Part shown: positions 6,547-36,408 of the stretch, piece by piece
Numbering within the stretch: the first letter of the stretch is position 1
Layout: each line of letters opens with the position of its first letter
Source of the DNA: a virus
Virus record (IMG/VR): IMGVR_UViG_3300033995_000630
Span: 1 to 36,939 of that record
DNA length: 36,939 bases
Strand: one strand, 5' to 3'
Translations under genes and position numbers: made by a program
Notes under the pieces: generated by a model
The model's database searches: none
Told to the model about the DNA's origin: nothing
Seen by the model: the letters and a program-made list of their open reading frames with translations, nothing else

Positions 6547-7077
6547 TCACCCCACCATGACCCACCATGAAGGGCACGCTTCGTGCGTGATACCGCACGG
6601 GCCGCCGCACGTTTCCGCAACGGCTCGACGCACCTCGAACGGTGGCATGTTGTAGTAGTCGTGCCCAGCCAGCACGCCGCCGACCTTCACCTTCGGTGCC
6701 CACGCCAGGATGTCACGCCTGCATCCGGCGTAGCTGTGGTCGCCGTCGATGTAGACGAAGTCGAGCGAGCGATCCGCGAACGTGGCGGCAGCCGTCACGG
6801 AGTCCATGCGGCAGATGCGGCATCGGCTCGCGTGATAATTGGCCACGCCGAGGGCTTGCTTAAACCGCAGCTCGTGCTCAGCGTCTGGCCCGTTTATCAC
6901 ATCGTCGTAGCCTTCCATGTGGCACCAGCGGTCCACCATGACGTACTGGCCGGGCCACAGATCAAGGAACGTACGCGAGTAGTTCCCTTCGGCAACGCCA
7001 ACCTCGACGGCCGTTCCCGTGTGGCCGAGCGACTGCAGGAACAGCGGGAACATATTGCGATGCACTGGCTTAATCAT
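6547..7077 (-). CDS. class I SAM-dependent methyltransferase
   Basis: A 176-aa protein. Motif I, the SAM-binding loop, is at residues 24-31 (VEVGVAEG). The acidic strand end is VMVDRW (about 47-51), and the LDFVYIDGDHSY block (about 105-116) is the hallmark of the Methyltransf_24/FkbM-like group, which often acts on sugars. The start ATG at 7077 overlaps the RusA stop by ATGA. Together with two glycosyltransferases downstream it probably decorates a glycan. The substrate is unknown, and no DNA-target motif (NPPY type) is present. Confidence 0.8.
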   Translation of the reverse strand: MIKPVHRNMFPLFLQSLGHTGTAVEVGVAEGNYSRTFLDLWPGQYVMVDRWCHMEGYDDVINGPDAEHELRFKQALGVANYHASRCRICRMDSVTAAATFADRSLDFVYIDGDHSYAGCRRDILAWAPKVKVGGVLAGHDYYNMPPFEVRRAVAETCGGPCGITHEACPSWWVMVG

Positions 7078-7472
7078 CCGATTCGCACGGTTGTCCGTGC
7101 CTCCGTGCCGTACGACTTCTCGATCACCAGGCGAGCCACGCATGTGTCATCGCCGATCACGTCTTGCAATGCGTCCAGGCACGCCTTGGCGATGTTGTCC
7201 ACGTCGGGCCTGGGCAGTTTCGGTGCGTCTGGTTTGACGCCGCTCTTCCGCACGTGCGACTTCGGACGCACGAAGACTGCGTCGATCACGACGTTGAGCG
7301 GCTCTCCGGTGTCGCTGAGCCCAGCCGCTCGAGCAGCTGCTGCCAGCGATTGCCGGTAGGCATGCACCGGATGCTTCGCGGGCACATACGCCCGTGCGAA
7401 CCCGCCCCGAGTCGAGACGCGTGGCCTCGGCTGCGGGACGGGCTCGCCAGGTACTGAGAACGTGATGCTCAC
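7074..7472 (-). CDS. rusA: RusA-family Holliday junction resolvase
   Basis: A 132-aa protein. It begins SITFSVPGEPVPQPRPRV, the RusA N-terminal strand plus the conserved PRPR. The metal-binding acidic residues D90, D92 and D100 lie in PRPDVDNIAKACLDAL, as in RusA. The enzyme would cut four-way junctions and clear branched DNA before packaging. I use the GTG at 7472, which makes a GTGA overlap with the upstream stop and matches the usual N-terminus; the extra eight codons are not needed. Confidence 0.9.
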   Translation of the reverse strand: MSITFSVPGEPVPQPRPRVSTRGGFARAYVPAKHPVHAYRQSLAAAARAAGLSDTGEPLNVVIDAVFVRPKSHVRKSGVKPDAPKLPRPDVDNIAKACLDALQDVIGDDTCVARLVIEKSYGTEARTTVRIG

Positions 7473-7747
7473 CGGTAGCGAATCACGGCGAACCACTGGC
7501 GGCGGGCCGGCGAGTAGGCGACGCCTTCCTCGACGATCACACGCTTGCCGAAGAAACAGCAGTTCCTCCGAGCGGCCTCGGGCGTCGAGCCGCAGCCGAT
7601 CCCTTCGTACTGGCCGCAGCTCGAATGCACGAGCACGCCGCGACGGGCGATCACTGTGGCGTGATCCTGAGCCGTCACGATGACAGTCGGGGCGGCTTCA
7701 ACCGTGAAGCACACCAGGGCCACAAGGCAAGCGAGAAGCAAACGCAT
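7469..7747 (-). CDS. small secreted cysteine-containing protein
   Basis: A 92-aa protein with a clear signal peptide (MRLLLACLVALVCFTVEA, then APT). The mature part holds four cysteines in the order SSC..GIGC..NCC and would form disulfides outside the cytoplasm. GGAGG stands eight bases ahead of the ATG at 7747. I recognise no family. An exported phage protein next to surface-glycan genes suggests superinfection exclusion or host-surface change, but that is speculative. Confidence 0.65.
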   Translation of the reverse strand: MRLLLACLVALVCFTVEAAPTVIVTAQDHATVIARRGVLVHSSCGQYEGIGCGSTPEAARRNCCFFGKRVIVEEGVAYSPARRQWFAVIRYR

Positions 7748-7891: not shown

Positions 7892-7931
7892 GCCTAGCGG
7901 CCGTGAAACCCATTTCCGCGCCGTGTTAGGC
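7892..7931. repeat. attC-like imperfect palindrome, copy 1
   Basis: On the plus strand this 40-base element begins GCCTAGC and ends GTTAGGC, a match to the integron R box (GTTRRRY). The inner arms pair as GGC-CG-GAAA with TTTC-CG-GCC, leaving one unpaired base in each arm around the loop TGGG. It lies after the stop of the DUF551 gene. A plain hairpin terminator is an alternative, but no T-run follows. Confidence 0.5.
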
Positions 7932-7963
7932 GGCGAAGATGCCGGCGAATACTTGTTCTGTGG

Positions 7964-8239
7964 CTACTTGCTGCCATGCTCTGCGGGCGGCTCTGGCATC
8001 GGCATCCAATACTGCGGGCCGTCCACAGCGTTGTTCTCTCGGCAGACCTTGTAGGTGCCGACGCTGGTGTTGGGATACCACCAGCCTTCGCCCGCAGGGT
8101 CAATGGCTCCGAGTTCGATGTCAAAGCCGTCTTCCCACCAAGCGTTTCGCACAATCCACACGCCTGCTGACCACCAGGCGACAAGGATATCGGTGCCGTC
8201 CTTTGGTGCGGTTTCGATTGGTTGCCAGTTGTTGTCCAT
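7964..8239 (-). CDS. DUF551 protein
   Basis: A 91-aa protein. It starts MDNNWQPIETAPKDGTDILV and ends near YWMPMPEPP, the two halves of the DUF551 signature (WxPIETAPKDGT... W.P.P.PP) common in phages and of unknown function. The start ATG at 8239 has AAGGG five bases ahead, and the 50 codons further upstream are shadow. The gene has an attC-like hairpin on each side, so it looks like a one-gene cassette. It is Trp-rich, which is typical of the family. Confidence 0.82.
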   Translation of the reverse strand: MDNNWQPIETAPKDGTDILVAWWSAGVWIVRNAWWEDGFDIELGAIDPAGEGWWYPNTSVGTYKVCRENNAVDGPQYWMPMPEPPAEHGSK

Positions 8240-8257
8240 GTTTCCCTTTCTACGCTC

Positions 8258-8313
8258 ACAGAACCAGCGGATGAAGCGGACGGCGCAGCCGCCGCTTATC
8301 CTGCGTGTTATGC
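8258..8313. repeat. attC-like imperfect palindrome, copy 2
   Basis: The plus strand folds as GGAT(G)AAGCGG(A)CGGC, loop GCA, GCCG-CCGCTT-ATCC: 14 pairs (8269-8301) with two bases bulged from one arm, as in integron attC sites. It is flanked by CAGAAC (8259-8264) and GTTATGC (8307-8313). On the minus strand the stop TAA of the upstream gene lies inside GCATAAC, the usual position of a cassette stop in the R box. It aligns with copy 3, with matching changes in both arms. Confidence 0.55.
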
Positions 8314-8700
8314 CTGCAAGTCTCGCCGCGTCATTCCGTCGTAGAAGTTCCACATCGCGTGAGCAAACAGCGCGGGCGGCATCCACCATTTTTCCGTGAG
8401 CATGGTAAGCGTAAACACAAGCACCGCCGTCACAGCAACGTCGATCAGCCGTCTCTTTGCTAGATCGCTCACAGCATTTCCTCTGCCTTCATGGCTATCG
8501 GCAGAACCACGCGATGCAGCGGACGGTGCCGCTGATCGCTGGCTGTCTCGCTCAGTGGCCGGCCCCGCCTCGCCTGCATCAGCGACGGCGTCATCAGGAA
8601 TCACCCAGCCAAATCGCGTATCCAGCCACACGCCGTCGCGCGTGAATCCGTAGCACAGCGGCCCCTCCTGGTCATGAGTCGCTGTCGTTGGATCACTCAT
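8308..8700 (-). CDS. possible fusion of two small cassette genes; C-terminal membrane span
   Basis: A 130-aa open frame. Residues 1-45 are soluble (MSDPTTATHDQEGP...). Residues 50-75 are translated straight through the attC-like hairpin at 8501-8545 and read as low-complexity Ser/Ala/Arg. The rest is a membrane protein with one span (about 87-105) and a Trp-rich tail. A second start, GTG at 8476, has AGAGG about seven bases upstream and would make the 55-aa membrane protein alone. The long frame overlaps the preceding gene by 8 bases. I think the original stop of the first gene, inside the repeat, has been lost. Function unknown. Confidence 0.55.
   Translation of the reverse strand: MSDPTTATHDQEGPLCYGFTRDGVWLDTRFGWVIPDDAVADAGEAGPATERDSQRSAAPSAASRGSADSHEGRGNAVSDLAKRRLIDVAVTAVLVFTLTMLTEKWWMPPALFAHAMWNFYDGMTRRDLQA
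8501..8545. repeat. attC-like imperfect palindrome, copy 3, inside an open frame
   Basis: The plus strand folds as GCGAT(G)CAGCGG, loop ACGGTG, CCGCTG-ATCGC (8511-8539), 11 pairs with one bulged G at the same place as in copy 2. The first 25 bases after CAGAAC-start alignment match copy 2 at 21 positions. Two of the differences are compensated on the opposite arm (A-T to C-G and G-C to C-G), which supports a conserved structure. The right-hand R box is degraded. Confidence 0.5.
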
Positions 8701-8920
8701 GCGATGCCCCTGATCCCGCGTGTCGGTGCAGCAGTCCCCGCAGCGTGTCGGCCCTTTCATGCGCAGTCGCCGCCTCGTCGTCGGCAACGCACGCCGCGAT
8801 TGCCTCTCGCTCCGCGTCGGTGAGCCGCAGGCGATCCACCTCCGCGTGCGCCGCCTGGAGTCGCAGCCGCGATATCTCGGCGTCACCACGCAGATCCTCG
8901 CGAATGATCTGGTCGCTCAT
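8693..8920 (-). CDS. small helical protein with LTDAEREAIA module
   Basis: A 75-aa, highly charged, helical protein (probable coiled coil over residues 8-40). Its C-terminal half, RLTDAEREAIAACV ... ADTLRGLL, resembles the tail of the next gene upstream (LTAEERGAIAYYV ... DATLRSLL), so the two probably share a module. It starts with an ATGA overlap and ends overlapping the next frame by 8 bases. Such tails recur in small planctomycete proteins as I remember them. Function unknown. Confidence 0.6.
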   Translation of the reverse strand: MSDQIIREDLRGDAEISRLRLQAAHAEVDRLRLTDAEREAIAACVADDEAATAHERADTLRGLLHRHAGSGASHE

Positions 8921-9219
8921 TTCGTTCGCTCCAGCAGTGAGCGGAGCGTGGCGTCCACCCTATCCGGCCCTCCAGTTCCGACATAGTAGGCAATCGCCCC
9001 CCGCTCCTCTGCCGTCAGCGCGAACGGCGTCAGCGAGCAGTGCAGCGTTGTGCGGCCAACAACGTGGGGGCAAGTCTGCGGGGTGCGGTAGAGCGGGATG
9101 ACTTCCGCCATGCCGACAACCGCACCCTCAGCGTCTTGGCGGCTGTATGCCAGCCACATCGGCTGACCGTTCTTGGCGACCGCCGCCCACGCCACTGGAT
9201 CCTGTTTCGCATCGTTCAC
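8917..9219 (-). CDS. small protein sharing the LTxAERxAIA tail
   Basis: A 100-aa protein. The N-terminal half (DPVAWAAVAKNGQPMWLAYSR ... VIPLYRTP) is the motif of small phage proteins that end in PLYRTP or PLYTHP and are often tandem with DUF551-type genes. The C-terminal half carries the same helical module as the gene downstream. I use the GTG at 9219, which forms a GTGA overlap with the upstream stop and has AGAGG ahead; the longer frame is shadow. The function is unknown. Confidence 0.65.
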   Translation of the reverse strand: MNDAKQDPVAWAAVAKNGQPMWLAYSRQDAEGAVVGMAEVIPLYRTPQTCPHVVGRTTLHCSLTPFALTAEERGAIAYYVGTGGPDRVDATLRSLLERTK

Positions 9220-9524
9220 GCCACACCTCTCGGTTGGAATATGCCTCGCCGCCACTTGGACACCTTGCTCTGCGTGTTCGTCACGTCTTCCCGCATCCGC
9301 TCTTGAATGTGCCGTTCCTTTAGCACAGCCTTGAGCCGCTCGATCTCTTCTGGCGACGGGTCTGCGAACTTGTTCTTTTGCGGTCTCTGTCGCTTTGGCA
9401 ATTTGTACTTCTGCGCCCAATGGCAGACGGTGCTGGCAGAGACCCCGAAGCGTTTGCCAATCGCCTCGGCAGTCTCGCCAGCAGTCCACATCTGGTGCAA
9501 TATGACTGCACGCTTGTTTTCCAT
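9216..9524 (-). CDS. HTH DNA-binding protein (GcrA/transposase-type HTH)
   Basis: A 102-aa protein. Residues about 8-40 (LHQMWTAGETAEAIGKRFG, then VSASTVCHWAQKY) fit the trihelical HTH seen in GcrA and in transposase N-termini, where a W-x-x-G-x-x-x-x-x-I pattern precedes the recognition helix. A basic linker and a charged helix follow. The ATG at 9524 has GGAG five bases ahead and is preferred to the GTG at 9530. It lies directly after the beta-clamp gene, 2 bases beyond its stop, and may regulate this operon. Confidence 0.65.
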   Translation of the reverse strand: MENKRAVILHQMWTAGETAEAIGKRFGVSASTVCHWAQKYKLPKRQRPQKNKFADPSPEEIERLKAVLKERHIQERMREDVTNTQSKVSKWRRGIFQPRGVA

Positions 9525-9526
9525 CG

Positions 9527-10633
9527 TCACTCCGTTGCCAGGGGCATGATGACGCCCACGAACGTGTCCGTGCGGAGCACCACCGCCGACTGCGAGTCGG
9601 TGGCCTGGACGCTCACCGTGGGCTCGCCGTCAGCCGGAAGGCCCGAGAGCCACTCGCGGACGAACACCGGATCGAGCTTCACGCTGCACGCCTTGCCGGC
9701 CTCCACGATCTCGCACGTCACGCTCGACTCGCCGGCCTCGGCCGACTGCCCATGCAGGTGGATGCCCTCAGCCGTGAACGTGTACTGCACGCCCTTCGAC
9801 TGCTCGCTCGTCACGATGGCTGCCGCCCTGGTCGCCGACAGCAGCTCCGTAGCCAGCACCGTGGTCGGCTCGCCGCCGTCCGCCGGGATCACGTCGCGCC
9901 ACCGGGGAAACCGCCCCTCGGTCAGCCGTGCCGTGACGGTCGTGCCACCGATGGTGGCCAGCAGCTCGTTCGCCGTGGCCTCCAGCTGCACCGAGTCCTC
10001 GCCGGCCGCCACCGCGACGCGGGCCAGGATCTGCATAACCCGGCTCGGCACGAGAGTCGTGGTGTCATCCACCGCCAGGTCGTGTTCCATCTCGCACGAG
10101 CACAGCCGGCGGCCGTCCGTGGCCACGAAGTTGACCACGCCGTCCTTCACGTCCACGAGCACCGCCCCGAGGGCGTAGCGGCTCGACTCCTGGTCGGCGG
10201 CGAACACAACGCCACGCACCGCCCGAGCAAACTGGTCAGCCGGGAGCCGCGTCACGGGCCGGGCGTCCTTCGGCTCCCAGATCGGGTACTCAGCCGCGTC
10301 CTCGACGGGCAGCGTCCACGTCCCGTGGCCACACCGCACCACGCACGACGTGCCCTTGGTCTCCAGCGTCACGTCCTCGCCACCGGCGGCGTTCAGGATC
10401 GCCATGAGCCGTCCGTGCGGTAGCAGCATCGCATCGCCGTGGTAGTCGATAGCGGCGTCGATCCGCACCTCGAGATCCGTGCCGGTCACGAGCCCGTCAC
10501 CCAGACGCACGTTCGTCAGCACCGGCTTTGGTGCCCTTGTTAGCACAGCCGGGCTTACAGCCGCGAGCGCACTCTTCAGCTCGGCGGCGCTCAATGTGAT
10601 GCCACCACGCTTCCGTTCCTTCGTTGCGACCAT
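9527..10633 (-). CDS. dnaN: DNA polymerase III beta subunit (sliding clamp)
   Basis: A 368-aa protein, full length for a bacterial clamp (about 366-378). It shows the three-domain pattern: LSAAELKSALAAVSPAV and VTGTDLEVRI in domain 1, FVATDGRRLCSCE at about residues 188-200 ending domain 2, and the C-terminal DPVFVREWLSGLP with a final hydrophobic stretch VGVIMPLA. It would encircle DNA and tether a polymerase; no polymerase is encoded here, so the partner must be the host enzyme. The ATG at 10633 has AAAGGA about eight bases ahead. Phage-coded clamps of bacterial type are uncommon in genomes this small. Confidence 0.9.
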   Translation of the reverse strand: MVATKERKRGGITLSAAELKSALAAVSPAVLTRAPKPVLTNVRLGDGLVTGTDLEVRIDAAIDYHGDAMLLPHGRLMAILNAAGGEDVTLETKGTSCVVRCGHGTWTLPVEDAAEYPIWEPKDARPVTRLPADQFARAVRGVVFAADQESSRYALGAVLVDVKDGVVNFVATDGRRLCSCEMEHDLAVDDTTTLVPSRVMQILARVAVAAGEDSVQLEATANELLATIGGTTVTARLTEGRFPRWRDVIPADGGEPTTVLATELLSATRAAAIVTSEQSKGVQYTFTAEGIHLHGQSAEAGESSVTCEIVEAGKACSVKLDPVFVREWLSGLPADGEPTVSVQATDSQSAVVLRTDTFVGVIMPLATE

Positions 10634-10742
10634 GTGAAGTCCTTTTCTTCGAGAGAGACAAACCAACCAAAACGCCAAGCACGAACGTGCAGGCGAGACT
10701 GATATGACCGATGCTGATGAGGGCGAATTGCTCAAGCGTCAT
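10497..10742 (-). CDS. small membrane protein overlapping the clamp gene
   Basis: An 81-aa open frame starting in an ATGA overlap with the gene upstream. Residues 5-28 form a strong membrane span (FALISIGHISLACTFVLGVL), followed by a basic anchor (SKKRTSHGR). Its last 45 codons overlap dnaN in another frame, which is a long overlap and makes the C-terminus doubtful. The coupling and the clean span argue that at least the N-terminal part is real. Function unknown. Confidence 0.45.
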   Translation of the reverse strand: MTLEQFALISIGHISLACTFVLGVLVGLSLSKKRTSHGRNEGTEAWWHHIERRRAEECARGCKPGCANKGTKAGADERASG

Positions 10743-12322: not shown

Positions 12323-12772
12323 GCTGTTCTCCGTCATCGAAGCGTGGTGCCGATCTAGCCACGCCACAACTTGGTGCGGGCGAGAAACCCACTCAGTAAC
12401 AAGGGTCTGCCACTGTGACTTTTCCAAGAGCAGTTGCTTAGTTCCAAGACACCAACGAACGGCTACCGCCTCGATGTCGTGAAACGTGTCAATGTCCCTG
12501 TCTGCCGGCACGGAATGGCGGGCAAGGCAGACGATGTGATTGCCTGGCACCTTCGCTAGAGAGTCGTAAAGAATCCGCTGGCCCGTCTTTAGGCTCTGCC
12601 AATCGCACCCGCCCCTCGTGAGCTCGGCCCAAAGAAAGCAGCCGTAGGACTCAACCACCATGTCGATGTCGCTTGGCGTAACTCCGCGCGCTAAACGCCA
12701 GCCTGAATGGTCCAGCATCTTTCCTTGGGCATACCGCTGACGGCAGATAATCGCCCCGCCAGACTGGCTCAT
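12311..12772 (-). CDS. PD-(D/E)XK nuclease-like protein, catalytic motif degenerate
   Basis: A 153-aa protein. The block RGVTPSDIDMVVESYGCFLW followed by AELTRGG resembles phage proteins of the PD-(D/E)XK type, where the order is TPSDID, strand, E-x-K, then a Gln-rich helix (here SLKTGQRILYDSL) and a strand with hydrophobic residues (NHIVCLARHS). Here the expected Lys of E-x-K is a Thr (AELT), so it may not cut DNA. The ATG at 12772 overlaps the ParB-Dam stop by ATGA, and the first 62 codons of the longer frame are shadow. Family assignment is tentative. Confidence 0.5.
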   Translation of the reverse strand: MSQSGGAIICRQRYAQGKMLDHSGWRLARGVTPSDIDMVVESYGCFLWAELTRGGCDWQSLKTGQRILYDSLAKVPGNHIVCLARHSVPADRDIDTFHDIEAVAVRWCLGTKQLLLEKSQWQTLVTEWVSRPHQVVAWLDRHHASMTENSNGR

Positions 12773-13899
12773 TTGAAAGCCTCCATGCAGAACCCAAACT
12801 GCGAGAACGCACGAGCGAACTCGTCGGTGTTTGGGCCGAGAAAAAGAATCGCCTGGCCTTGGAGCGGCGCAGCGGACGGCTTGGCCGGATGCCAGAACTT
12901 CACGCGGCCCTTCGGGAAACAGATGGCAGAAGCCTGCTCCGCAAGCGACTGAAACCACCTTGTTTCCGTAGCGTTATTGACCAGCACAATCGCATTTGTG
13001 ACGGCCCCGCTGGCATATGAATCGCACAGCTTCTCGACGAACTGGCCGATGAGGCCCGACTCATACGGCGGGTTCATCCACAGCGTGCCTTGCCAGTCCT
13101 TGTCGAGCCCGCTGTCTTCCGCCGTGTAGTAAGTCGCGGCCCGCACAAGCTCGTTTGCGATAGGGTTTGATGCAGGGTCTAAGTCGATCTTGCCGAGCAC
13201 TTGGCGGGCTGCCTCGATGTACTCCTTCGGCGTATACCACTCGTTGTCACCGCTGTTGTTGGCGACGTGCGGCCGGGCCTTCACTGTCTCGACGGCCTGC
13301 TCAATGTCGGCTGCAGTGGGCTTCTCCGGGAGTGCTGCAGCAGCCGCCACTATCTCGTGCTTCGGCGCGTCGATCTCGCCCGCTATAACCTCACGCTCGA
13401 TACCAAGTGTTTCGACGGCCTCTGCAAACTTGCCGTCACGCTCTATCGTTCTCGCCGAAACGCCGTGTTCTTTGGCAAGCCTTTCGGCGGCCTGACCTTC
13501 CGACAAAATGTCGGAAGGTCGTTTCCTGCGAGCACCGGCTTCCTCTGGCGGAAGCCTGTTCCTGAGATACCTCCGCCCGCGCAGCAGACTCATCGCACGA
13601 GGGTCAAGGTTGCGCCGCCCAAGCTGATTCCTGTCGATCCAATCAGCAGCCTCCTCGCGGCTCTTAAACCGCATCTCGTGAATGTCGAACGGCAGCCCCA
13701 GCCGCGTGCAGATCTCGTAGCGGTTGTGGCCGTCGAGCAGCGTGAGCGTTCCCTTGCTGGCCCACACCACCAGCGGGTCGCGTGCACCGCCGTGCTCAAT
13801 GATGTTCTCTTCCAGCTGCTGCCGCTCTTCCGCCGACAGCGGCGGAATCAGTGCGGCGAACTCGGCGTCAACGATGATGTCTTCAAAAACCTGCGGCAT
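12769..13899 (-). CDS. ParB-like domain fused to phage DNA N6-adenine methyltransferase
   Basis: A 376-aa two-domain protein. Residues 1-150 carry a ParB/Srx-like domain (ENIIEHGGARDPLVVW, DGHNRYE at 56-62) and an HTH at about 133-155 (GQAAERLAKEHGVSARTIER). Residues 215-370 match the phage Dam family: WYTP, DPASN (241-245), the NPPY catalytic motif (276-279) and a C-terminal GQAILFLG strand. It would bind DNA through the ParB/HTH half and methylate adenine, probably to block host restriction. AAGGAGG precedes the ATG at 13899. Confidence 0.88.
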   Translation of the reverse strand: MPQVFEDIIVDAEFAALIPPLSAEERQQLEENIIEHGGARDPLVVWASKGTLTLLDGHNRYEICTRLGLPFDIHEMRFKSREEAADWIDRNQLGRRNLDPRAMSLLRGRRYLRNRLPPEEAGARRKRPSDILSEGQAAERLAKEHGVSARTIERDGKFAEAVETLGIEREVIAGEIDAPKHEIVAAAAALPEKPTAADIEQAVETVKARPHVANNSGDNEWYTPKEYIEAARQVLGKIDLDPASNPIANELVRAATYYTAEDSGLDKDWQGTLWMNPPYESGLIGQFVEKLCDSYASGAVTNAIVLVNNATETRWFQSLAEQASAICFPKGRVKFWHPAKPSAAPLQGQAILFLGPNTDEFARAFSQFGFCMEAFK

Positions 13900-14942: not shown

Positions 14943-15167
14943 TCAATCGCTCGACTCTGGTTTGGCTATGTAACTCCTCCACCCCGGCGTTGCCGGCGGT
15001 GGCTCGTGCTTCATCTTGAGTTCGTGGTACGCCTTGAGGTTCGTCTCCGCAGCCTTGCGGCAACGTTGCGCCTCATCACGCATTCCGCTTGCAACGGTCG
15101 CCATGTCGGCTTTGCCGTGCTCGCGGAGGTACGCGACAACGTCATCGAAGGTGGGCCAGCCGCTCAC
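14943..15167 (-). CDS. hypothetical 74-aa protein
   Basis: A protein of unknown family. It reads SGWPTFDDVVAYLREHGKAD and then a charged helix (DEAQRCRKAAETNLKAYHEL). The GTG at 15167 forms a GTGA overlap with the stop of the RecT-like gene; the 26 extra codons of the longer frame lie inside that gene in another frame and look artificial. Translational coupling to the annealing protein suggests a recombination accessory, but this is only context. Confidence 0.58.
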   Translation of the reverse strand: MSGWPTFDDVVAYLREHGKADMATVASGMRDEAQRCRKAAETNLKAYHELKMKHEPPPATPGWRSYIAKPESSD

Positions 15168-16078
15168 GATGCGTTCTCCGTGGCGGCAGCCTCGTGCTCG
15201 AACTCCTGGCCGTTGTCCTCTGGCTCGCTTTCCAGCCACTCGCACTTGCCGTCGATCAGGTGCACGAGCTCGTTGCGTTGGGCCGCGGTGAAAGTGCCCT
15301 CCTTGTGCCGCTGGTTGACGCGATCCCGCAGGGCGGCAAGCAGCTCGAGGCTGTTCGTCCTCTGCACGGCGAGCCGGGCATTGGCGACGGGATCATTCGT
15401 GGCCGAGAGGGCCGGCGGCTGTGCCGTCTGCTGCGCGTGGCTATCAACGGCTGTTGCAGGGGCGTGGCCGCGCTCCACAGCCGCCGGGCGACTCTCGGTT
15501 GACGGGAACTTGGGACGCACCACGACGGGCTCGCGGGCGGGCTCGGGAGCCGGGGCATCTGCGATCTCGTCTGGGTCGTAGATGCCGACCGAGCCTTCCC
15601 AGCCGATGCTCTTGAGCCCTGCCGTGATGGCACGGCTGCGAAGCATCGCCTTCGGGTGCTTGGCGTAGTTGTCATTGGACGCCAGGCCAGCCCTCTTAGC
15701 GTCCTCAATCGTGAACGTCTCCGTGTGCTCGTCACCGTTGGGATGACGCAGCACGAGCACTGCCCGAGCCTCGGTCAGTTCCTTGAACTGGGCACGGCCG
15801 CCGCACGACTTAAACCGTGCGAGCTGCGAATCAGCCCGCTCGGTCACGGTGCCTTTGATGACCTGCAGTTTGCGGCAGGCAGCCATCGTGCCCATGCCCA
15901 ACTCGCGGCCCATCAAGACAATCGCGGCAAACGAAACGCCGTCGCGGATGTGGCTTGGCAGGAAGCCGGTTCTCCGCAGGGCATCTCCCATGCTGACGAG
16001 TGACTCAAACGAGGGCTCGCTTTGGGTTGTCACGGCCAGCGAACCAGCCGCGTTGTGGGTTGTCAGTGCAGTGCTCAT
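15164..16078 (-). CDS. RecT-like single-strand annealing / recombination protein
   Basis: A 304-aa protein. The core at about residues 25-165 (LRRTGFLPSHIRDGVSFAAI, VLMGRELGMGTMAACRKLQV, GTVTERADSQLARFKSCGG, then NYAKHPKAMLRSRAITAGL) is the pattern of phage proteins annotated as RecT-family recombinases. The C-terminal 120 residues are a low-complexity Pro/Ala/Glu linker and a helical end. It would anneal complementary single strands in phage recombination. No partner exonuclease is evident. AAAGGA precedes the ATG at 16078. The family link is remote, so confidence is moderate. Confidence 0.65.
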   Translation of the reverse strand: MSTALTTHNAAGSLAVTTQSEPSFESLVSMGDALRRTGFLPSHIRDGVSFAAIVLMGRELGMGTMAACRKLQVIKGTVTERADSQLARFKSCGGRAQFKELTEARAVLVLRHPNGDEHTETFTIEDAKRAGLASNDNYAKHPKAMLRSRAITAGLKSIGWEGSVGIYDPDEIADAPAPEPAREPVVVRPKFPSTESRPAAVERGHAPATAVDSHAQQTAQPPALSATNDPVANARLAVQRTNSLELLAALRDRVNQRHKEGTFTAAQRNELVHLIDGKCEWLESEPEDNGQEFEHEAAATENAS

Positions 16079-16318
16079 CGTCGCGTCCTTTCGTAAGAAA
16101 CCTTGCGTCACTTTTCTTTGAAAATCCCGCTCGGCGTCCTGCGTTGCGGGTCGTTCTTGCGTCCTTGCTGCTGGCGTCTCCGACGCCCTCCTTTCCACCG
16201 GTTGACTCCGTCTTCCGGTGGTCCTGTACGTGCGTGATCCTTGAAGTTGGGGGGAAAACGTAAACGGGAGGGGGGGGGGGGGGCAACCCCCGTGCCATAT
16301 CCGCCGTGATTTTTGCGT
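16079..16318 (-). other. 240-nt leader upstream of the RecT-like gene
   Basis: No gene is evident. On the minus strand the region holds a GC hairpin with a 14-base G run on the opposite strand (16264-16294), a perfect 7-bp inverted repeat CCACCGG/CCGGTGG (16195-16221), and a perfect GGCGTC/GACGCC palindrome (16173-16187) just beyond an AGGAGG. The stacked structures in front of the RecT-like gene look like a regulated leader or terminator-antiterminator, but I find no clear promoter. Confidence 0.4.
16264..16294 (-). terminator. possible terminator with a G14 tract
   Basis: Read on the minus strand, ACGGGGG, loop TTG and a long C run can fold, followed shortly by GTTTACGTTTT. It lies 25-55 bases after the stop of the gene at 16319-16588. 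On the plus strand 16270-16283 is fourteen consecutive G, prone to slippage, to G-quadruplex formation and to sequencing error. Confidence 0.4.
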
Positions 16319-17944: not shown

Positions 17945-18125
17945 ACTGTCCTGCCGCCGCATCCAGCAGAATCTGCCCACCTCCGCCAATCCGAGAATCG
18001 CAGTCCCAACACCGCGACAATCGAACTAGTGAACAAAAGTAGTAGCGGAGGGCATGGGAGTAGGGAACTCGTACACCCTGGACTTCTGTATACTACTGCC
18101 ACAACACCAAAAGGGAGGCAGTGGC
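17945..18125. other. divergent control region upstream of the integrase
   Basis: About 180 bases without a gene between the regulator promoter and the integrase. A -10-like TATACT (18089-18094) lies 31 bases before the integrase ATG at 18126 but has no good -35. The phage attachment site is expected here or at 19038-19153, but I cannot see a tRNA-like core or a defined repeat. Confidence 0.35.
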
Positions 18126-19037
18126 ATGACTATTCGGGAGCTGTTGATCGAGCGGTACGCACCGTTGCACAACCTGTCGGCCAGGAGCGTCGTGCTCTTT
18201 GGCCATTCCATCGACCGGCTGCGGGACTTCCTGCAGCGAGAGCCACAGATTGCCGACTTTGACGATCTTGTGATCGCAAAGTTCTTGCGGTGGCGGGCCG
18301 TCACGCCGCATCGCGGCAAGGTCTGCTCGCCGGCCAGCGTGGCAAAGGACAAGGCCCACCTGTCGGCCCTGTGGAACTTCGCCGCACGGAAGCGGATCGC
18401 GGCTGAGTTCCCAGACCTGCCACGCCTGAAAGTGCCTACGCGGCCGCCACGGGGCTACACGGTCGCCGAGGTGTCTGCACTCGTCAGGGCAGCGAGAACG
18501 GCACACGGCTCAATCGGTGGTGTCCCAGCCCCATGGCTGTGGATGACGCTGATTCAGTCGCTCTGGTACACGGGCGAGCGGATCGGAAGCCACCTTCGGC
18601 TGCGGTGGTCGGAAGTGGATCTCGACGCCTGCCGCATCACCTTCCTCGGCGAGACCCGCAAGGGCGGCATCGAGACGATCCAGCGGGCCATTCATCCCGA
18701 CCTGGCCCAGCAGCTGCGTCGCTACCGCAGGGCGGATGCCGATCTCGTCTGGCCGTGGCTCGAGCACCGCCGGGCCAATAGTCTTTTCCAGACGCTGCGG
18801 CTGCTGTGTAGGCGGGCAGGCGTCAAGGCTAGGGGCTTCCACGCCATCCGCAAGGCGAGCGGTTCCTACGTCAAGGCCGGGGGCGGCGATGCCACGGACC
18901 ACCTGGGCCACGCCAACCCGAAGACCACGAAGGATCACTACCTGGACACCACCATCACCGGGCAGCAGTCGGCCCTGGACTTCCTGCCGCCGCTCGACCT
19001 CGAAGGCCCGCAGGACGGCACTAGCCCGGCGGCTTGA
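18126..19037 (+). CDS. int: tyrosine recombinase (phage integrase)
   Basis: A 303-aa protein. It has an N-terminal core-binding SAM-like domain (about residues 1-95) and a catalytic domain carrying all the usual residues: Arg152 (YTGERIGSHL), Lys179 (ETRKGG), His239 and Arg242 (HAIR), His262 (LGHAN) and the nucleophile Tyr272 (DHYLD). It would recombine attP with a host site. The ATG at 18126 has GGGAGG seven bases ahead; the 24 codons before it overlap the promoter region and are not used. It is the only strand-switched block together with the excisionase-like gene that follows. Confidence 0.93.
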   Translation: MTIRELLIERYAPLHNLSARSVVLFGHSIDRLRDFLQREPQIADFDDLVIAKFLRWRAVTPHRGKVCSPASVAKDKAHLSALWNFAARKRIAAEFPDLPRLKVPTRPPRGYTVAEVSALVRAARTAHGSIGGVPAPWLWMTLIQSLWYTGERIGSHLRLRWSEVDLDACRITFLGETRKGGIETIQRAIHPDLAQQLRRYRRADADLVWPWLEHRRANSLFQTLRLLCRRAGVKARGFHAIRKASGSYVKAGGGDATDHLGHANPKTTKDHYLDTTITGQQSALDFLPPLDLEGPQDGTSPAA

Positions 19038-19153: not shown

Positions 19154-19627
19154 ATGGACAAGCTTTTGACACGCAAGCAGGTCGCAGAGTTTCTTGGGAT
19201 TGAGCCTGGCACACTTGCACGGTGGAAGTGGGCAGGCAAGGAAGGTCCGCCGAGCGTGATGGTTGGCACGCGTTCGATTCGATATCGGCAATCTGACGTT
19301 GAGGCGTGGATGCGAGGCGGGGCCGTCATCGCAGACAGTGCAGACACTGAGTCAGCAGATAACTTTGCTTTAGCCTGTCGCTTCGGTGCCCTTTACAAGC
19401 TCAGCAAAGAGGATCGCCGCAAGATCTGCCGCGAAATTGCTGAGGCGTGCGAGAAATCCTTTCGGAGAGGATTTCATCAGGGCCGTGAAGGCGCAGGCGA
19501 TGTCGTTGTTGATCTTATGGATTGGCGATTCAATACGCCGCTTTCGCAATCGCCTTCACCGCACGGAACCTATGATTCCGACGCAATCACTCGCCATTCG
19601 GCAGAGGTTGGATTGCCACGCAGGTAG
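19154..19627 (+). CDS. excisionase-like HTH protein with a C-terminal extension
   Basis: A 157-aa protein. Residues 1-55 match the AlpA/excisionase HTH_17 fold (LLTRKQVAEFLGIEPGTLAR, then GTRSIRYRQSDVEAW). Known excisionases of this type are 60-80 aa; here another 100 residues follow, with a helical charged stretch (SKEDRRKICREIAEACEKSF), of unknown role. AAAGGAGG precedes the ATG by seven bases. It follows the integrase on the same strand, 116 bases apart, and would direct excision or regulate integration. Confidence 0.72.
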   Translation: MDKLLTRKQVAEFLGIEPGTLARWKWAGKEGPPSVMVGTRSIRYRQSDVEAWMRGGAVIADSADTESADNFALACRFGALYKLSKEDRRKICREIAEACEKSFRRGFHQGREGAGDVVVDLMDWRFNTPLSQSPSPHGTYDSDAITRHSAEVGLPRR

Positions 19628-34750: not shown

Positions 34751-36408
34751 TCACCAGAAGGAAATCTCGGGCATATCGGCGGGCTTCATGCTCTCGCCCA
34801 TGTGAACGCCTACGGCCATGATGGTGGCTACCACCGCGTCCACGCGTTCCGTGCTCTTGGCCTTGCTCACCTTCAGATTCCCGGCCGGATCGGTCTGTAC
34901 GGCCGCGTTTCCTAACTGCCAACCTACCAACGGATTCAATCCAAACCGCACCTTTCCATCGACCACAAGAGCCTCCAGGCGGCGCGTCGGCGCTGTCATT
35001 GACGCAAAACCCTGCCCGTACAACGTCACCGGCAAGCCTTCGTCAGAGAGCTCGGTGGCCAGTTGCGTCGCGTTCCATCTGTCGATGGCCAACTTTCGAA
35101 CGCGGTGCTTCTGGGCGAACTCCAGAATGTCGGCCTTCACTCGCTTGTAGTCCGTGCTGCGGCCCTCGGTGTATGTGAGCCACCCATCCCGGTGCCACGC
35201 CGTGTACTGCACGCGGTCGTTTCGTTCTCGCTCGGCGGCGTTGTGCTCAGGGATCCACGCCATCACATGCACGTCGTAGCCGCCGGATTCGTTGGGGGCC
35301 ACGGCCGAAAAGCATGTGGTGTCATAGTTGCTGGCGAGGTCAAGCCCGCACCACACCTCGCGGCCCTCAAGCGACTCCGACAGCGGCCCCATGCACGCGG
35401 CGATCTGGTCGGGCCGCAGCCACCGAACGTCGGAGGTGGTGGGGATGTTGAGGCGGTATCGCAGGAAGCTGTTGAGCTTGGTCGCGGAGTTCTCGGCCTC
35501 CCTGCAGTCAGCCGCGAATGACTCCTCGCTGATCGTCTCGCCAAGTGATGGGTTCGCCTTGTGCCACACCTTCGGTGACTTCCAATCGTCTTCACGGTCG
35601 GCGGCATAGATGCAGCCAAAGAAGGCTGGGTCAAAGGCCGGGTCGGCCATGCACCGCTCTGCGTAGTCGTGCTGCTCGTACCACAAGTGCGACTTGTTGG
35701 CCTCGCCGGCCGTCGTGATCGACAGCACAAGCGGCTGCCGCCGGGCCGCGCCGCCGTACCGAAGGGCATCCCACAGCCGGCGATCGCCACGTTGGGCATG
35801 TAACTCGTCAAAGAGCAGGCACGAGATATTCAGTTAAGACTGGCTTGAGCCCCCCCAGCCGAAGCCGGAGGGGCTCAAGCCAGTCCCTCGGCTCTGAATG
35901 CGTCAGCACTCAGCACCCGGTAGAACGAGTTACTCCCACGATGCACGATGGTCTTCCGCGAGTCGAGCACCTCCAGCACCTTCGACAAGGCCGGCGATGA
36001 GCGGACCATCGACGCGGCCTCGCGGTAGATGATGCCCGCCTGCTCGCGGTCGCTCGCCGCCCCGTAGCACTCGCCGCCTGCTTCGCCGTCTGCCAGCAAG
36101 GCGTAGAGGCTGATGCCGGCAAGCAGGGTGCTCTTGCCGTTCTTCTTCGGGATCTCGATATACGCCTGGCGGTACTGCCGCGTGCCATCCGGCTTGCACC
36201 GCCCGAAGATTTCGCCGAGCACGTACTTCTGCCACGGCAGCAGCAGGAACGGCTGCCCGGCCGTCTGGCCCTTTGAGTGCTTCAGCACCTTCTCAAAGAA
36301 CTCATAGACCCGCTTGACCTTGGCTTCGTCCAGGCCAGGCCGATGCTTAGCCGTGGGCGGCGAAGAACTCTTCGAGCTCGTCTTTTTTGACTTCGACTTG
36401 CGTGGCAA
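34751..36408 (-). CDS. large terminase (TerL), frame broken by a 50-nt gap
   Basis: The N-part (TTG start at 36408 with GAGGA ahead; 176 codons) carries the Walker A motif PKKNGKST (87-94). The C-part (359 aa) begins NISCLLFDELHAQ, which holds the Walker B motif LLFDE, and continues into the RNase H-like nuclease (GLDLASNYDT; final Asp in ERVDAVV). Between them is a 50-nt hairpin insert with an in-frame TGA one codon after its start. Deleting the 50 nt joins EGL to NIS and gives a normal 535-aa terminase. The C-part has no start codon before Walker B, so two separate proteins could not rebuild the ATPase. The gene is either read by ribosome bypassing or inactivated. Confidence 0.85.
35831..35885 (-). 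repeat. hairpin insert in terL between matched CTG codons
   Basis: On the minus strand GACTGGCTTGAGCCCC (35885-35870) pairs perfectly over 16 bp with 35853-35838, around a loop that can form CCG-GCTT-CGG. The 50 nt from 35880 to 35831 are absent from the expected coding sequence. CTG stands at both edges (35883-35881 and 35833-35831), within a 4-base duplication ACTG. Confidence 0.85.

Follow-up and report, generated by a model that had tools for sequence, protein, structure and literature searches.

Integrons are regarded as a bacterial system for gene capture, and integron-like hairpins in the genome of a phage raise the question of what they are doing there. An earlier note on this DNA had proposed that three imperfect palindromes (here called copies 1 to 3) are attC-like sites bounding two small gene cassettes, one encoding a DUF551 protein and the other a membrane protein. 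Clusters of attC sites without an integron integrase (CALINs) were described in 21 phages by Qi et al. in 2023, IntI1 acted on five of the six phage attC sites that were tested, and the cryptic Shewanella prophage M16-3 has an attI site at a CALIN (PMC9892861). For the phage examined herein, we consider it very likely that the locus is an integron platform without an integrase, comprising an attI site and cassettes, that is served by the IntI enzyme of the host.

The DNA analyzed is IMG/VR virus record IMGVR_UViG_3300033995_000630, whose full length of 36,939 bases is referred to as the window. It represents a tailed phage with lysogeny-type genes, encoding terminase, portal, capsid, head-tail adaptor, neck, and tape-measure proteins as well as a replication initiator, a sliding clamp (9527-10735), and a RusA resolvase (7074-7496). 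A megablast search of deposited phages with the window gave no match. The array of interest lies between the sliding clamp and RusA genes, where genes lie on the minus strand, and it spans 7956-8545 as two single-gene cassettes inserted after G7955 (Table 1). One possibility is that such arrays are pieces of bacterial chromosomes misfiled as virus contigs, given that IMG/VR has errors and that some array-bearing contigs carry no hallmark gene. However, the window has terminase, portal, capsid, adaptor, and tape-measure genes, TerL is present in 27 of 50 array-bearing records (including the one with the most attC sites), and near relatives have phage backbone on both sides of the array. We therefore rejected this explanation, whose probability we regard as negligible.

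Table 1. Features of the window, with positions counted from the first base of the record
Feature	Coordinates	Strand	Remarks
Copy 1, phage-backbone palindrome, not attC	7892..7931	+	No cassette boundary here
attI-like platform site	7925..7961	+	Crossover G7955^T7956; all relatives keep the backbone to G7955
Cassette 1	7956..8307	+ (attC orientation)	From TTCTGTGG to the G of its attC
Cassette 1 gene, DUF551-like protein, 91 aa	7964..8239	-	Weak PF04448 match, E 0.83
attC of cassette 1 (copy 2)	8257..8313	+	R'' CACAGAAC, R' G^TTATGC
Cassette 2	8308..8545	+ (attC orientation)	Absent from relatives
Cassette 2 gene, small membrane protein, GTG start, 54 aa	8308..8472	-	From sequence
attC of cassette 2 (copy 3), last of array	8500..8551	+	R' G^TCTCGC
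RecT-like gene	15164-16198		
Phage tyrosine recombinase, not IntI	18054..19037	+	PF00589, 28.8 bits; phrog_1 integrase; no TIGR02249 match
Excisionase-like gene	19154..19627	+	phrog_66, E 2.8e-10; TIGR01764 below cut-off

By folding alone, the attC assignment of copies 2 and 3 is not convincing. Their folding energies are modestly better than those of shuffled sequences (z -1.7 to -2.5), and Rfam searches, at the gathering threshold and at a relaxed E-value, returned nothing meaningful. Rather, it is the attC family to which they belong that makes the case. The pattern CAGAACCANNNNATGNAGCGGACG matches 91 stretches in IMG/VR viral contigs, and in nearly all of these the element runs on into a matching second arm and GTT at an apparent gene junction, with up to 18 attC sites per contig (nhmmer matches, L047); the contigs are fragments gathered by patterns, and these frequencies are not estimates of prevalence. 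When 18 attC variants from phages and a few bacterial loci were aligned, 95.7% of pairs were kept and 8 pairs were doubly changed, a level of pairing reached by none of 500 shuffles and approached by no slid register. The family thus consists of imperfect hairpins with an extrahelical base and a conserved stem. Copies 2 and 3 conform to this description as the earlier note had read them, with agreement at 21 of 25 leading positions (81% over 31 nucleotides in our repeat search), a bulged base in the folded 5' arm, and compensated changes in the arms; the stem of the cassette 1 site has an extra G and A in its 5' arm.

Class 1 sites such as attC(aadA7) combine GTT in R' with the stem AAGCSG-A-C ... 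G-CSGCTT, whose top strand has an additional base in its 5' arm. The phage family shares this stem, the extra 5'-arm base, and GTT, but its R' box is mostly G^TTCT rather than GTTRRRY, and the loops of the window's two sites are very short. The R' boxes of the window itself are GTTATGC (copy 2) and GTCTCGC (copy 3). Because planctomycete integrons located beside intI likewise use GTTCT, we take this box to be a trait of the lineage and not grounds for exclusion. With two attC sites and no intI gene, the window contains a CALIN (at least two attC sites, no intI) and not a complete integron, which includes intI.

In a circular cassette the R'' and R' boxes are complementary, and once the cassette is linear R' stands at its start and R'' at its end. 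The R' box after one site should therefore match the R'' box of the next site, which provides a check specific to integrons. Among 112 distinct cassettes, mostly viral and a few bacterial, 4.20 of 6 positions matched in this way, compared with 2.55 (sd 0.10) in shuffled sets, of which none of 5,000 scored as high, and with 2.67 of 6 in a control with the neighbor reversed. The R'' and R' boxes at the same junction matched at 2.75 of 6 positions, hardly above the shuffled value of 2.63, as expected if those two boxes are parts of different cassettes. The window follows the same rule. In cassette 1, R' TTCTGTG pairs with R'' CACAGAAC at 8257-8264 (8 of 8), and in cassette 2, R' TTATGCC corresponds to R'' GGCAGAAC at 7 of 8 positions.

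Comparison with relatives, found through the sliding clamp, reveals whole-cassette replacement. L124 and L125 align to window positions 8893-8503 and 7959-7065 and not in between, and L171 behaves likewise. The relatives retain the phage backbone to the left and right of the array and carry different cassettes, with cassette 1 replaced by others in L124, L125, L128, and L171. On the left, the backbone runs to ...GAATACTTG (GAATGCGTG in L131), and after that G the cassette differs between contigs, such that at least eight different first cassettes occur at a single base in close relatives (window, L124/L125, L171, L128, L131, L174, L176, L178, and L179). Wherever a contig includes the first attC, the R'' box of that site matches the start of the new cassette at 7 or 8 of 8 positions. 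Elsewhere, 24 pairs of similar cassettes, most of them 95-99% identical, have differing neighbors on both sides. The right-hand attC body tends to move along with its cassette, and the body of the cassette 2 site recurs as the right-end body in L124, L125, L128, L171, and L174. Thus, the comparison that the earlier note had called for uncovered swaps between near-identical phages exactly at the R box, and not the same hairpins conserved in all relatives as plain terminators.

The swaps also bear on two other explanations. The hairpins are intergenic and fold, as would simple terminators of transcription or structured RNA leaders. However, no T run follows either hairpin on the minus strand, there is no Rfam match, and the hairpins bound whole exchanged units with integron box logic. 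On the basis of the swap data and the missing T run we rejected this reading, which is very improbable. A second proposal is that homologous recombination between repeated attC hairpins, aided by the phage RecT-like protein, shuffles the cassettes. The window has a RecT-like gene, and attC repeats of about 50 nucleotides are common to many phages. We nevertheless find this proposal quite improbable. The breakpoints of the swaps fall at a single base, G^TT, and the left site there lacks homology to attC; nor would homologous exchange be expected to yield R' and R'' boxes that are complementary within one cassette.

Two additional observations concern the ends of the array. In all relatives of the window's lineage, the last attC has G^TCTCGC in place of G^TT (8545-8551 in the window), and this replacement may lock the right end. 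In four contigs (L132, L133, L134, and L135), the left backbone runs straight into the last attC body at its second half, which indicates that the attI-like site and all cassettes were deleted.

The left end of the array required a different interpretation from that of the earlier note, which had taken copy 1 as a third attC with its own R box and had placed the left limit of the DUF551 cassette there. Copy 1 is indeed a palindrome (folding z -3.2), but its left arm is not conserved, being replaced in L075, L176, L177, and L178 while the right part, GTTAGGCGG, is kept. The true boundary is G7955^T7956, which lies 24 nucleotides further right, and the cassette starts at 7956. On both grounds copy 1 was rejected as an attC, so that of the three proposed hairpins copies 2 and 3 are genuine, and copy 1 is instead part of the attI-like platform.

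In unrelated arrays, a common motif precedes the first-cassette starts that are predicted from the R'' boxes. Planctomycete chromosomal integrons have a site of this kind, such as TATACGGACCGTATAAATACAAG^TTC, at a distance of 110-270 bp past the stop codon of intI. When phage sequence totaling 1.5 Mb was searched with a profile HMM built solely from nine of these host sites, 21 sites scored E<1, and a reversed control gave none. All 21 are located at array starts and end at most a few nucleotides from G^TT. This model replaced the column conservation of a right-anchored attI alignment, which was set aside because indels and wrongly assigned boundaries diluted the signal. Used by itself, the attI pattern occurs at 32 viral sites, which are followed by 28 distinct sequences; a matching attC lies downstream in 21 of these 28, compared with 105 of 560 control positions.

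The left site of the window matches host attI weakly and has diverged. However, host-type attI sites occupy the orthologous place in L130, which has the same backbone as the window, and in L141, and for this reason we call the window site "attI-like." An attI site therefore adjoins the array in the phage group, and in the window it is recognized by position and exchange, with a weak sequence match.

Which enzyme might act on these sites? A search for IntI (TIGR02249) in 86 virus records gave no match over the cut-off and none in the window. In the planctomycete family of genome G007, 27 of 72 genomes pass the IntI cut-off, and the attC pattern, allowing one mismatch, occurs in 17 of 72, with none for a reversed control. 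One planctomycete chromosomal contig (L098) carries intI, attI, and, in first place directly at attI, a phage-type DUF551 cassette. Inspected translations of its open reading frames (ORFs) include an ABC-F protein, a sulfurtransferase, SufE, a ROK protein, and a radical SAM protein, and its attC region is 96.8% identical to window positions 8245-8307 over 63 nucleotides. The match to PF04448, weak for the window's protein, is clear in its homologues from other phage cassettes (E 1.6e-9 and 3.4e-7) and from the host integron (E 5.7e-12), whereas the cassette 2 protein had no match in a search against Pfam.

These findings bear out the earlier suggestion that the phage has captured cassettes or shares a cassette-like repeat with its host, as the same attC subtypes are found beside intI in a planctomycete chromosome and cassettes swap between phages. 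Site homology and one shared cassette type suggest that the host of this phage is a planctomycete. Because the phages encode no IntI and their attI and attC sites match those of the host, the IntI of such a planctomycete is most likely the enzyme involved, and it is the most economical candidate.

The main competing explanation is that the tyrosine recombinase of the phage moves the cassettes through host-like attC and attI sites. A recombinase of this type is encoded in the window and in most of the array-bearing records longer than 27 kb that were searched. However, the protein is an integrase of phage type, encoded next to an excisionase, and is not matched by the IntI model, its gene is 10 kb from the array, and the attC and attI sites of the phages match those of host IntI systems. 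To our knowledge, recombination of folded attC sites is known for IntI only. We therefore judge this explanation to be unlikely.

In the preferred model, a fixed attI-like site precedes two single-gene cassettes that each carry an attC, and exchange would involve circular cassettes recombining at the G^TT of an attI or attC site. The reaction would be carried out by the planctomycete host IntI during infection, as the sequence comparisons suggest. The cargo presumably helps the phage.

The orientation of the cassette genes is unusual. The top strand of attC(aadA7) is the one whose 5' arm contains the extra base. Where the ORFs on the two strands of a phage cassette differ clearly in length, the gene lies against the attC top strand in 43 cases and with it in 5. 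The opposite-strand ORFs group into real families, 45 DUF551-type proteins among them, whereas the same-strand ORFs do not. In planctomycete arrays, genes with Pfam matches run with the top strand (Fic, ParE-like, and DUF4345); for the few bacterial cassettes, the longest ORF gave no clear direction by itself, which was settled by such matches. The cassettes of the window are bounded by attC sites as originally claimed, with the correction that their genes run opposite to the usual cassette orientation.

Given this arrangement, phage cassette genes have the attC at their 5' end and often terminate in or close to the R' box. The cassette 2 gene provides an example already pointed out in the earlier note, as its TAA (8308-8310, minus strand) lies within G^TTATGC of copy 2. 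Because the genes are opposite to the canonical orientation, they would be read by the phage's own leftward transcription, with each attC located in a 5' leader.

Loops of phage attC sites are either short, as in the window, or about 40 nucleotides long. A ribosome-binding site (RBS) and start codon in frame with the cassette gene lie inside the long-loop attC at 82 of 115 phage sites. The corresponding count was 41 of 115 when random flanks were used and 1 of 115 for the opposite strand; in bacteria it was 3 of 25. In L047, L059, L066, L124, and about 80 other long-loop sites, the loop of about 40 nucleotides often contains the RBS and start. The attC arm of these sites also codes for N-terminal sequences that recur, among them MTNEVDEMSAASRGS and MNTDNTQDAAEPSLASAGS, and that continue in frame into the cassette gene. 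For the group as a whole, we think it likely that many planctomycete phages keep a dedicated attI locus and swap small accessory cassettes there through the host IntI while they infect, that phages and hosts draw on one cassette pool, and that the cassettes are built backwards, with the attC carrying the RBS and start codon in many other phages of the group.

Like the phage CALINs (PMC9892861), the arrays considered here are attC-flanked cassettes in phage genomes without intI. They differ in that a whole phage group has a fixed attI locus, inverted genes, and turnover between near relatives, and in that a host integron lineage with the same sites can be named. Planctomycete attC sites have been modeled previously (PMC8352920). 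The sedentary chromosomal integrons of Planctomycetota (L098, L102) share with the phages the attC core GATGNAGCGGAC...CCGCTGATC, an attI with TATNCGG and AGAATTACAAG^TT, and the cassette logic, but they have intI, mostly long attC loops, and the canonical direction of Pfam-matched genes. Our literature search, which included few subscription papers and no bioRxiv preprints, found the phage CALIN paper and no report of a platform phage group. In the papers searched, phage CALINs were already known, but an attI platform that lacks an integrase, holds inverted cassettes, and shows turnover across an entire phage group was not described.

If phages keep their own attI and use the host IntI, then integrons would serve for rapid exchange of accessory genes among phages and between phages and hosts. 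This would offer a testable answer to the question of how cassettes travel between cells. It predicts that cassette turnover is driven by phage infection and that many small phage genes of unknown function, including DUF551 genes, are cassette cargo.

Several further features were observed. Elements resembling attC, with the same core and GTTATG, are present in other phyla (L095, Demequina silvatica; L103, an Acidobacteria MAG). A phage-type attC with the same leader sequence is found in Cyanobium sp. FGCU52 (L099, contig JANWUS010000013), whose assembly has two IntI genes; this could reflect either cross-phylum spread of cassettes or a contaminated assembly.

In the phage genomes themselves, the terminase large subunit of the window is divided over two ORFs (34751-36408), and the TerL match has an internal stop or is in two pieces in many array-bearing phages, including G028, G033, and G059. 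An intron, an intein, a frameshift, and recoding are candidate causes. Another gene of the window (12769-13899) encodes a DNA methyltransferase with an N-terminal part for which phage families of unknown function were the only matches. To the right of the array (8546-9530), where no attC is now present, the encoded proteins end in LLERTK or LLHR motifs, as do many cassette proteins, and their genes may be former cassettes that became fixed in the backbone.
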